A stretch of 64,000 nt of DNA from Pseudomonas frederiksbergensis (GTDB lineage: Bacteria; Pseudomonadota; Gammaproteobacteria; Pseudomonadales; Pseudomonadaceae): assembly GCF_035751725.1 (NCBI RefSeq), contig NZ_CP142104.1, positions 1,922,001-1,986,000 on the forward strand, written 5' to 3'. Under the pieces are notes generated by a model. The model saw nothing but the letters and a program-made list of their open reading frames with translations, was not told the origin of the DNA and ran no database searches. Both the position numbers and the translations under genes were made by a program. This document shows, piece by piece, positions 21,750 to 34,691 of this stretch. How positions within the stretch are numbered: position 1 is the first letter of the stretch; every line of letters begins with the position of its first letter.

Positions 21750-21845
21750 GGGAAAGAGTGTTCCTACAAAAAATGTGGCGAGCCGGAAATTTCTGACGAG
21801 TCGTGTCGATTGGTGGTTCGCAAGCGCTGGGGATAGGCTTTGTCC

Positions 21846-22062
21846 GTCGCTACAAAATCAGCGACCGGGTTTGGTCGCCCAGGGTTAGAATGGCGCACTC
21901 TCAGCCGCGCGAGCGGCTGTCTGCCTTATGGCTGACTGTGCGTGGGAGGGCTTCGGCCCTGCCGGGTTCCATTCCCTGGTCGACCAACCTGCGTACAGTT
22001 CGCCACCCCTCTGCTTGGTCGCAGAAAATGGTGAACTCCACTTTTGAATGGAGCTGCACGTC
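21846..22062 (+). ncRNA. Structured 5' leader (candidate cis-regulatory RNA), copy 1
   Basis: A stretch of about 217 nt directly before a DUF6124-type gene. Helices visible: GTCGCT/AGCGAC (21846-21851, 21860-21865), CAGCCGC/GCGGCTG (21902-21908, 21913-21919), AGGGC-TTCG-GCCCT (21947-21960), CGACCAA/TTGGTCG (21981-21987, 22015-22021), and CTCCA/TGGAG (22036-22040, 22049-22053). The last covers the Shine-Dalgarno sequence. An additional TTGGTCG at 21871-21877 could pair with the same CGACCAA, or locally with GCGACC, so alternative folds are possible. The leader at 34251-34480 on the other strand has the same order of elements with compensating base changes, including CTACCAA/TTGGTAG. I do not recognise it as a named RNA family. 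Confidence 0.6.
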
Positions 22063-22433
22063 ATGGTCAAGATCACCCCCAATCCCCCCGGAAAAGCCGA
22101 AACCTATCCTCATACACACGCTTCGACTCGGCAGAGCAACGCGAGGCAGCCGACCGGGCATTGAATATTCATTTGTCTCCAGATGCGGCCGTCAAGCCCG
22201 ATACCTTGGAAGGCCATGTCTTTACCGTAGTCAAGGGCCTCAGCACCGAATCCATACTGACCACTCTCAGCGAAACCCTAGCTTCCGCCAATGCCATGGC
22301 CAACGACCTGGCCTTCGATCTGGAAGGCTCGCGACGGCACGTGGCGTTGGGGCTTCAGCAATTGATCGAGCTAGGAACACTTCTGGCTAATCGAGCACTG
22401 GATGACATCGAGCTGCCCCAGCCTCCACGCTAG
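22063..22433 (+). pseudogene. DUF6124-type small protein, frameshifted
   Basis: ATG at 22063 follows a TGGAG ribosome site and opens MVKITPNPPGKAETYPHT, a typical start for this small Pseudomonas family. That frame soon closes. The body (RFDSAEQREAADRAL..., then SETLASANAMANDLAFDLEG and a C-terminal LANRALDD) continues in another frame to 22433. Removing one CA from the ACACAC run near 22113-22120 would join them into a protein of about 120 residues, so the defect looks like a dinucleotide slip. It could also be a sequencing error. Family function is unknown to me. It converges on the NRPS gene ending at 22466. A related broken copy lies at 33925-34250. Confidence 0.65.
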
Positions 22434-33924: not shown

Positions 33925-34250
33925 TCAGCGCGGCGCGGCGATGTCCAGGGCGCGGTTTGCCAATAGCTCACTCAGCTCGATCATCTGCTGGATCCCCAAG
34001 GCAAAGCTTCGTCGTGCGCCTTCCAAATCGAATGCCAGTTCGTTGGCCATGACATTGACCGAGGCGAGGGTTTCGCTGAGGTTGGCCAATAGACACTCCA
34101 TGTCCGCGCCTTCCGCCACGGTGAATAACTGGTCCGGTGGTGGCTTGGGTGTTTCGGGCTTGGGGTCGAGGTAGTAGGCGAGGGCGCGGTCGGCGGCTTC
34201 GTCGAGTTTTTTGGAATCGTCGTCGGGAGGATTGGGGTGATCTTGAACAT
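33925..34250 (-). pseudogene. DUF6124-type small protein, frameshifted, second copy
   Basis: ATG at 34250 (AGGAG 8 bases upstream) opens MFKITP and then leaves the family frame within a run of four C (34238-34235). Adding one C restores MFKITPNPPDDDSKK... and joins smoothly to the body (FTVAEGADMECLL, SETLASVNVMANELAFDLEG, LANRALDIAAPR) ending at 33925, for a total of about 109 residues. The defect is a one-base change in a homopolymer, so it may be a sequencing error, slippage, or a true null allele. A short remnant could start from GTG at 34119. It is clearly related to the copy at 22063-22433 and shares the same kind of structured leader. Confidence 0.68.
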
Positions 34251-34480
34251 GGTGAAACTCCTAGTATTCATTTTCAGGAGCCGACACCCTCGCTACCAAA
34301 CGATTGGGTGGCGGCCGTACGCGGGTTGGTAGACCGGAGCACTAGGAACCCGGCGCGCCCGAAGACGCCCTGCGCACGGCCACCATGAAACAGATGCCCA
34401 GGGAGCATCTGCAAGAGGTGGCGCTTGCGCCTAGTTGACTCGCGGGCTACCAAACCCGATCGCTGGAAACAGCGACCCGA
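34251..34480 (-). ncRNA. Structured 5' leader (candidate cis-regulatory RNA), copy 2
   Basis: Read on the - strand: TCGCTG/CAGCGA hairpin (34475-34460), TTTGGTAG (34454-34447), CAGATGC/GCATCTG (34411-34391), GCGTC-TTCG-GGCGC (34368-34355), CTACCAA (34332-34326) pairing with TTGGTAG (34299-34293), then CTCCT/AGGAG (34280-34276, 34262-34258) with the Shine-Dalgarno sequence inside the last helix. The same elements occur in the same order before the copy at 22063, but with paired substitutions. A 91-codon open frame covers the leader (34549-34274); I regard it as non-coding. Nothing else is evident up to 34640. Confidence 0.6.
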
Positions 34481-34647
34481 GAACAGTAAAAGCCACGAAC
34501 CAAGCGCACAAGCCGGCGGATTCTGGCGTAGTTGTAGGCAATGACGCAAGGCAACGTAGCCTTACTCGGGAGTCCTACATGCCCCAATAAATAGAGCCAA
34601 AGCCAGTCCCCTCCAACACACCAGACACACCGAGGTGCTGCCTATTG

Positions 34648-34691
34648 GGGCTGCTGCGCAGCCCAGCGGGAGCAAGCTCCCTCGCCACAGG
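34648..34691. repeat. GC hairpin and partial REP before opmQ end
   Basis: GGGCTGC-TGC-GCAGCCC (34648-34664), followed by a REP-type palindrome around GGGAGCAAGCTCCC (34668-34681) and CTCGCCACAG. It lies downstream of the opmQ stop. The remainder of 34481-34742 shows no gene. Confidence 0.65.

Follow-up and report, generated by a model that had tools for sequence, protein, structure and literature searches.

The C4 antisense RNA is known from the phages P1 and P7, where it undergoes RNase P processing and works as an antisense RNA on the mRNA (PMC5320573). In A. baumannii AB5075, 21 C4-like RNAs make up the Group 1 sRNAs, with processing at a GG motif (PMC5320573), and in B. cenocepacia isrK and C4 lie in one transcription unit (PMC4603805). 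The c4 and c4-a1b1 motifs occur in Proteobacteria and phages (PMC2864571). In the Salmonella prophage Gifsy-1, orf45 and anrP are joined by an overlapping stop-start AUGA (PMC4825925). Related accounts include a review of phage sRNAs (PMC12197685) and the P1 transcriptome (PMC8201110). An expansion of C4 in Pseudomonas, or C4 targets in this genus, is not described in the consulted parts of PMC5320573, PMC4603805, PMC2864571, PMC12197685 and PMC8201110, and the consulted parts of the open-licence PMC literature yielded no description of a coupling of C4 to DUF6124, DUF3077 or QslA.

We analyzed a stretch of 64,000 nucleotides from Pseudomonas frederiksbergensis (contig NZ_CP142104.1), referred to as the window. 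The preliminary description of this DNA had proposed two structured leader RNAs and a covariance-model search of Rfam. Using cmscan, we found two Rfam matches over the gathering score in the 64 kb, both of them to C4 (RF01695), with 60.8 and 82.8 bits against a cut-off of 45 and with model positions 1-87 covered in full. Both leaders are thus modules of a known class of antisense RNA. Their parts are as follows.

Copy 1:
21833..21885, + strand: c4-a1b1-like target segment (RF03163, 38.3 bits, below gathering at 46.7)
21846-21923, + strand: partial isrK match (RF01394, 40.8 bits, gathering 50), overlapping a1b1
21871-21877, + strand: a1, TTGGTCG
21888-21893, + strand: b1, GAATGG, 3' of the c4-a1b1-like segment
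21902..21919, + strand: hairpin CAGCCGC-GCGA-GCGGCTG between a1b1 and C4, read from the sequence
21924..22010, + strand: C4 antisense RNA (RF01695, 60.8 bits, gathering 45)
21968-21974, + strand: b', TCCATTC
21981-21987, + strand: a', CGACCAA
22015..22053, + strand: target segment a2+b2, from sequence and complementarity
22015-22021, + strand: a2, TTGGTCG
22036-22040 and 22049-22053, + strand: local hairpin CTCCA/TGGAG
22046-22052, + strand: b2, GAATGGA, overlapping the Shine-Dalgarno GGAG at 22050-22053
22063..22433, + strand: DUF6124 gene, frame-disrupted; the conserved ATG at 22063 opens a 33-aa ORF
22218-22403, + strand: DUF6124 domain, in another frame

Copy 2:
34507..34526, - strand: motif CCAGAATCCGCCGGCTTGTG, present before 12 of 22 modules
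34511-34506 and 34488-34483, - strand: promoter-like TTGTGC and TACTGT, 17 nt apart, overlapped by the motif
34439..34489, - strand: c4-a1b1-like target segment (RF03163, 42.2 bits, below gathering at 46.7)
34387-34476, - strand: partial isrK match (27.0 bits, gathering 50)
34453-34447, - strand: a1, TTGGTAG
34435-34430, - strand: b1, ACTAGG, 3' of a1
34391..34411, - strand: hairpin CAGATGC...GCATCTG between a1b1 and C4, read from the sequence
34304..34390, - strand: C4 antisense RNA (RF01695, 82.8 bits, gathering 45)
34347-34341, - strand: b', TCCTAGT
34332-34326, - strand: a', CTACCAA
34258..34299, - strand: target segment a2+b2, from sequence and complementarity
34299-34293, - strand: a2, TTGGTAG
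34280-34276 and 34262-34258, - strand: local hairpin CTCCT/AGGAG
34265-34259, - strand: b2, ACTAGGA, overlapping the Shine-Dalgarno GGAG at 34261-34258
33925..34250, - strand: DUF6124 gene, frame-disrupted near its start; conserved ATG at 34250
34128-33943, - strand: DUF6124 domain, in another frame

When the coordinates were re-read by script, all the blocks and helices that had been described as common to the two leaders were found in place, and they can now be named. The TTCG hairpin is the first C4 stem-loop, the ACCAA strand is a', the upstream and downstream TTGGT are a1 and a2, and b' is the loop of C4 that complements the Shine-Dalgarno stretch. The upstream TTGGT is indeed able to compete for the ACCAA strand, and corresponds to the a1/b1 target known from c4-a1b1 and isrK. 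The pairing of ACCAA with TTGGT is also present, not as one fixed helix but as an antisense a' with the two targets a1 and a2. The order at both copies is the expected one, partial a1b1 and isrK matches followed by C4, with both copies missing the gathering scores of RF03163 and RF01394. In the isrK alignment, the CAGCCGC hairpin of copy 1 occupies the position of the isrK 3' hairpin; it is not followed by a strong T run.

The modules resemble C4 of P1/P7 in the covariance model, the a'/b' loops and the order of parts, and likewise have targets on both sides, with b2 lying over the ribosome site. Unlike the phage RNAs, the Pseudomonas modules are chromosomal, reach 42 copies per genome and differ in their addresses, and the gene behind C4 is DUF6124 (or DUF3077, QslA, Bro-N), not ant as in P1. 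At the window, C4 is followed by DUF6124 in the place of a phage antirepressor gene; the Rfam model does not require such a gene, and its absence concerns the target of C4, not the RNA. As in isrK-orf45-anrP of Gifsy-1 (RF01394), a short upstream RNA shares sequence with the downstream target (PMC4825925), and an overlapping start-stop coupling comparable to that of orf45-anrP (PMC4825925) is found at 20 loci with a leader ORF. In contrast to that system, the window copies have no leader ORF and match isrK below its cut-off; unlike in the Gifsy-1 prophage, the six neighbouring window ORFs scanned belong to siderophore, NRPS, export and efflux functions, and none of the six is a phage gene. The A. 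baumannii Group 1 sRNAs offer a further parallel, namely many C4-like RNAs in one genome with a variable a' region, and are known with processed ends (PMC5320573). The consulted part of that article describes no cognate downstream gene for them, whereas most Pseudomonas C4s match the transcript of the next gene. What is new here is the scale and wiring of the C4 system; the surprising part is the system, not the RNA class.

The fold was examined in 76 of the 77 Pseudomonas C4s whose length is exactly 87 nt (all but L147; 74 distinct sequences). Here 98.0% of cells are paired, and pairing falls to 32-40% when partners are slid by 1 to 3 columns. The earlier claim that helices are kept by paired changes holds for the C4 fold beyond the window: double changes occur in 169 cells against 42.2 in shuffles, none of 500 shuffles being as high. 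They are seen at 16 C4 pairs, with none in the third helix, the b' stem, among the 76 sequences. Paired changes thus keep a closed three-helix fold of the 87-nt unit.

We consider it highly probable that these elements form an antisense module as a whole, in which C4 blocks translation initiation and an a1b1 RNA titrates C4. Judging from the promoter-like sequence and from relatives, one transcript would start just before a1/b1, and, as in the relatives, it would run through C4 and a2/b2 into the gene. RNase P would cut C4 out of this transcript, by analogy with the phage and Salmonella relatives. Its b' loop would then pair with b2 at the Shine-Dalgarno and its a' loop with a2 of the mRNA; acting in trans, as these relatives suggest, C4 would leave the small DUF6124 protein untranslated. 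A short upstream a1/b1 RNA, the counterpart of isrK, would bind the same C4 loops and relieve the block.

The preliminary description had favored a cis-regulatory RNA with a hidden ribosome site. The structured RNA and its aim at the ribosome site stand, while the family is a known antisense one whose prototype acts on mRNA. In a purely cis-acting switch, a1 and a2 would compete for a' and a local hairpin would hide the Shine-Dalgarno, with no separate antisense RNA involved. The complementarity of a' to both TTGGT copies fits such a switch, as do the two alternative mRNA structures described for IsrK (PMC4825925). The local hairpin is present at both window copies, and among 111 leaders a stem of at least 5 bp is found in 57, compared to 31% after shuffling of all but the last 22 nt of the leader, an enrichment that is only moderate. 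Against it speak the closed three-helix C4 fold, the A. baumannii relatives that appear as processed RNAs in RNA-seq, and the C4 of P1/P7, an RNase P product (both PMC5320573). We regard the purely cis-acting switch as unlikely.

Both leaders do lie before DUF6124 genes as first described, but in neither copy does the conserved start codon share the DUF6124 frame. The frames encoding the domain (PF19619) score 98.8 and 101.7 bits against a cut-off of 27, and no family other than this one came out of the Pfam and NCBIfam scans of the window proteins. Thus the window copies keep a well-formed RNA with a disrupted gene, and since both genes are broken, these two copies may regulate nothing now. 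The frame disruptions may stem from assembly error; the long neighbors are open, for example a 1376-aa NRPS. A furfural-evolved strain of P. putida is reported to have a DUF3077 pseudogene altered by the insertion of a single base (PMC9630843), so the window is not alone in showing frame changes in this group. Fifteen of the 18 C4-coupled DUF6124 genes of the same genome are intact, the three broken ones including both window copies. A 121-aa ORF in G039, homologous to the gene of copy 1, is intact and does not adjoin the gene that flanks copy 1 in the window. Among nine modules homologous to copy 2, five have an intact gene and four, that of the window included, show early frame disruptions. 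The dN/dS values of 0.08-0.21 between the five intact genes indicate that this copy 2-type gene is under purifying selection.

The leader had been described as present twice, a figure that does not extend to the genome: its single 6.0-Mb contig holds 22 C4 RNAs over the cut-off, along with 23 DUF6124 matches. By coordinates, 18 of the 22 C4s lie directly before a DUF6124 gene. Of the remaining four, one is followed by a short ORF and a DUF3077-like gene, and the others (L039, L041, L043) by proteins of 93-95 aa in which no Pfam family scored over its cut-off. The C4-coupled proteins of this genome have their nearest relatives in Pseudomonas. Across 40 genomes of the genus, this one included, C4 was found in 36 (35 over the cut-off), with 0 to 42 per genome and 670 in total, and DUF6124 in 32, with 474 matches; the two counts per genome correlate with a Spearman coefficient of 0.85. 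In the phylum, C4 is present in 62 of 398 genomes. When loci were chosen by the DUF6124 protein alone (the best 80 of 330, from named genomes of P. corrugata, P. brassicacearum, P. mediterranea, P. kilonensis, P. thivervalensis and others), C4 lay upstream on the same strand at all 80 and ended 44-57 nt before the DUF6124 match. These loci are related to each other and hence do not represent 80 independent events.

C4 is not obligatory, as 5 of the 23 DUF6124 genes of the genome have no C4 match. Three of the five (L056, L057, L058) carry an a1b1-like segment, scoring 36.1, 30.7 and 54.4 bits, respectively, with RF03163, of which the last is over the cut-off. Their a1b1-to-domain distance is 211-233 nt versus 311-333 nt at the window copies, a spacing shorter by about one C4 (~100 nt). 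Other C4 RNAs may target these genes, or the genes may have escaped them. Beside another DUF6124 gene without a C4 match we observed a match to the PrrF sRNA (166.7 bits, L060:2016-2162).

The many dispersed paralogues with private antisense RNAs bring to mind a set resembling type I toxin-antitoxin systems, in which C4 would be the antitoxin, DUF6124 the toxin, and the many copies orthogonal. The frequent disruption of the genes (3 of 18 in the genome, 4 of 9 in the copy 2 set) would be in line with this. However, C4-less DUF6124 genes with open frames exist in the same genome (L056, L057, L058, L060), scans of the window proteins returned DUF6124 alone, and by eye the DUF6124 sequence has no obvious membrane segment. 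A toxin-antitoxin function thus appears very unlikely to us.

A set of 148 C4 loci from 30 genomes was compiled: 22 from the window's genome, 28 that were the best of their genome, 29 more each from G019 and G009, and 40 others. One locus, L082, was dropped at a contig edge. Including the best match, 30 of the 42 C4s of G019 and 30 of the 38 of G009 were used, and loci from outside the window's genome were drawn from the better-scoring matches. An ORF of at least 70 aa directly follows C4 at 112 of these loci; at 20, a short ORF comes after C4 and overlaps the following start with its stop (ATGA 18, GTGA 2), and 16 show neither layout. ORFs of at least 60 aa with an ATG 25-140 nt after C4 occur at 121 of the 148, of which 119 were retained (L034 and L036, in the wrong frame, left out). 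Among these 119, there are 73 matches to DUF6124, 16 to DUF3077, 3 to Bro-N and 1 to QslA at E 0.001. The set A1 contains 25 among the 120 listed of 647 proteins, and A4, A5 and A6 contain 14 of 17, 16 of 22 and 12 of 12. The ORFs resembling Bro-N, a phage antirepressor type, are 170-175 aa long (L065, L067, L094).

QslA, the LasR anti-activator of P. aeruginosa (PF18226, PDB 4ng2), binds LasR and obscures its dimerization (PMC5767178). The consulted parts of the QslA literature, PMC5767178 included, make no mention of an antisense RNA on qslA. Genes with this domain are present in 67 of 298 genomes of the genus. Taking one locus per genome, best first, C4 lies upstream on the same strand at 22 of 30, in the order C4, short ORF, 80-91-aa ORF and QslA-type ORF. 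Of the eight without C4, one (L321) is at a contig end and six (L328-L333) are weak QslA matches of 50-52 bits. Similarly, in a second genus of the family, C4 precedes all 15 QslA loci taken from 11 genomes, three of them weak matches; the nearest shares 61% identity with the QslA stretch of P. aeruginosa. Overall, QslA-family genes stand behind C4 at 37 of 45 loci tested. A near-identical P. aeruginosa qslA was not found in the 25 genomes searched. Hence, members of the QslA family and DUF6124 are alike in their place behind C4; unlike in position, no relation in sequence was found by profile comparison. That DUF6124 is an anti-activator would for this reason be a guess from shared control. 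Still, this link to a quorum-sensing anti-activator family makes the function of DUF6124 testable.

The specificity of the modules lies in their addresses. In the window's genome, the a' strings are of 11 kinds and the b' loops of 22; an exact complement to a' of at least 7 nt exists upstream in 22 of 22 copies and downstream in 20, the other two having 6 nt. Over the 148 loci, this is the case downstream at 129 and upstream at 135, compared to 8.1% and 9.9% when loci are re-paired. For b', an exact complement is found downstream at 107 and upstream at 68, compared to 5.1% and 5.5%. Across three genomes, a and b are both matched over at least 7 nt in 57 of 82 cognate combinations (15 of 22, 24 of 30 and 18 of 30 per genome) versus 7 of 2202 non-cognate ones, and the cognate target outranks all others in 15, 28 and 19 of the 22, 30 and 30 rows, respectively (G009, 19 of 30).

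Duplex energies in the window's genome show how this separation arises. For b' with b2 the mean is -16.2 for own versus -10.0 for other pairs, none of 10000 permutations being as low, and the cognate target ranks first in 12 of 22 rows. The energy of a' with a2 alone does so in 1 of 22, because a codes are common to several copies, and the summed a2 and b2 energies in 13. Against the upstream segment, b' ranks its cognate first in 5 of 22 rows, a weak effect (3 of 10000 permutations as low). Address separation here rests on b' with b2 more than on a' with a2, and discrimination is imperfect. Taken together, most C4s are matched in sequence to their own downstream small gene, suggesting that they form a network of RNA off-switches, each private to its gene. 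In G009, several C4s stand in tandem without matching targets. Five of them (L127, L143, L144, L145, L147) are close together, some ~100 nt apart, and have no matching site for a on one or both sides; these are possible orphan antisense RNAs.

Some modules also have a common upstream sequence. The motif CCAGAATCCGCCGGCTTGTG, searched with up to 3 mismatches, has 12 sites in the 6.0-Mb genome, each upstream of a C4 module, while the reversed pattern has 0. It is present at copy 2 and absent before copy 1. The hexamers it overlaps, TTGTGC-17-TACTGT, look like a promoter that would place the transcript start just before a1. Because the motif precedes 12 modules, these may switch on together, each with its own address.

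As C4 is a phage family, the modules could also be functionless immunity fragments left behind by P1-like phages. Bro-N domains in 3 of the 119 C4-coupled ORFs agree with such debris, and so does the sole phage record with DUF6124, in which the match sits at the edge of the 22.7-kb record, beside prtR, with C4 upstream of DUF6124. Yet this is 1 of 50,697 phage records, and 72,556 plasmids gave 0; with this near-absence, the Pseudomonas set is chromosomal as far as tested. The purifying selection on intact genes, the address sites that stay matched over 148 loci, and a motif confined in this genome to the upstream side of 12 modules also speak against it. To the idea of prophage debris we accordingly give hardly any credence.

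For the antisense module, these observations offer a mechanism for the leaders of a large uncharacterized Pseudomonas family, DUF6124. They also provide, within a single cell, a natural collection of tens of antisense pairs that are largely orthogonal, in which one could measure how short RNA addresses change and how they avoid cross-talk. Tentatively, and with more doubt than confidence, we suggest that Pseudomonas could have converted an immunity RNA of phages into an addressable system of off-switches that spans the genus. Each genome would have tens of C4 modules, largely orthogonal and in part co-regulated, with addresses swapped as cassettes and with each module gating a small regulator-disabling protein (QslA, Bro-N, and by extension DUF6124 and DUF3077); P. 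aeruginosa qslA itself would then be under C4.

The site of copy 2 allows a look at such changes of address. In seven of the nine homologous modules (the window's own, G210, G290, G267, G268, G125 and G160), the genes on either side lie next to the module, as they do in the window; G205 has its upstream flank ~1.7 kb further off, and in G153 only the downstream flank adjoins. Five other genomes have both flanks with a gap of ~84 to 436 nt instead of some 900. Other content is present at L200, together with short module remnants, and at L204, and four loci in this comparison have one flank only. The a code is TTGGTAG in six of the nine modules and quite different in three (G210, G125, G160). 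In these three, a1, a' and a2 have all changed together, with both flanks and the gene orthologous, and it looks as if the address segment was replaced by recombination with another copy. Between G125 and G160, the alignment shows b' and b1 differing by a matching base and b2 identical, which leaves one wobble pair in G125. A repeat at window position 34645-34691, presumably REP-like, recurs on either side of the copy 2 module in several relatives, in both orientations.
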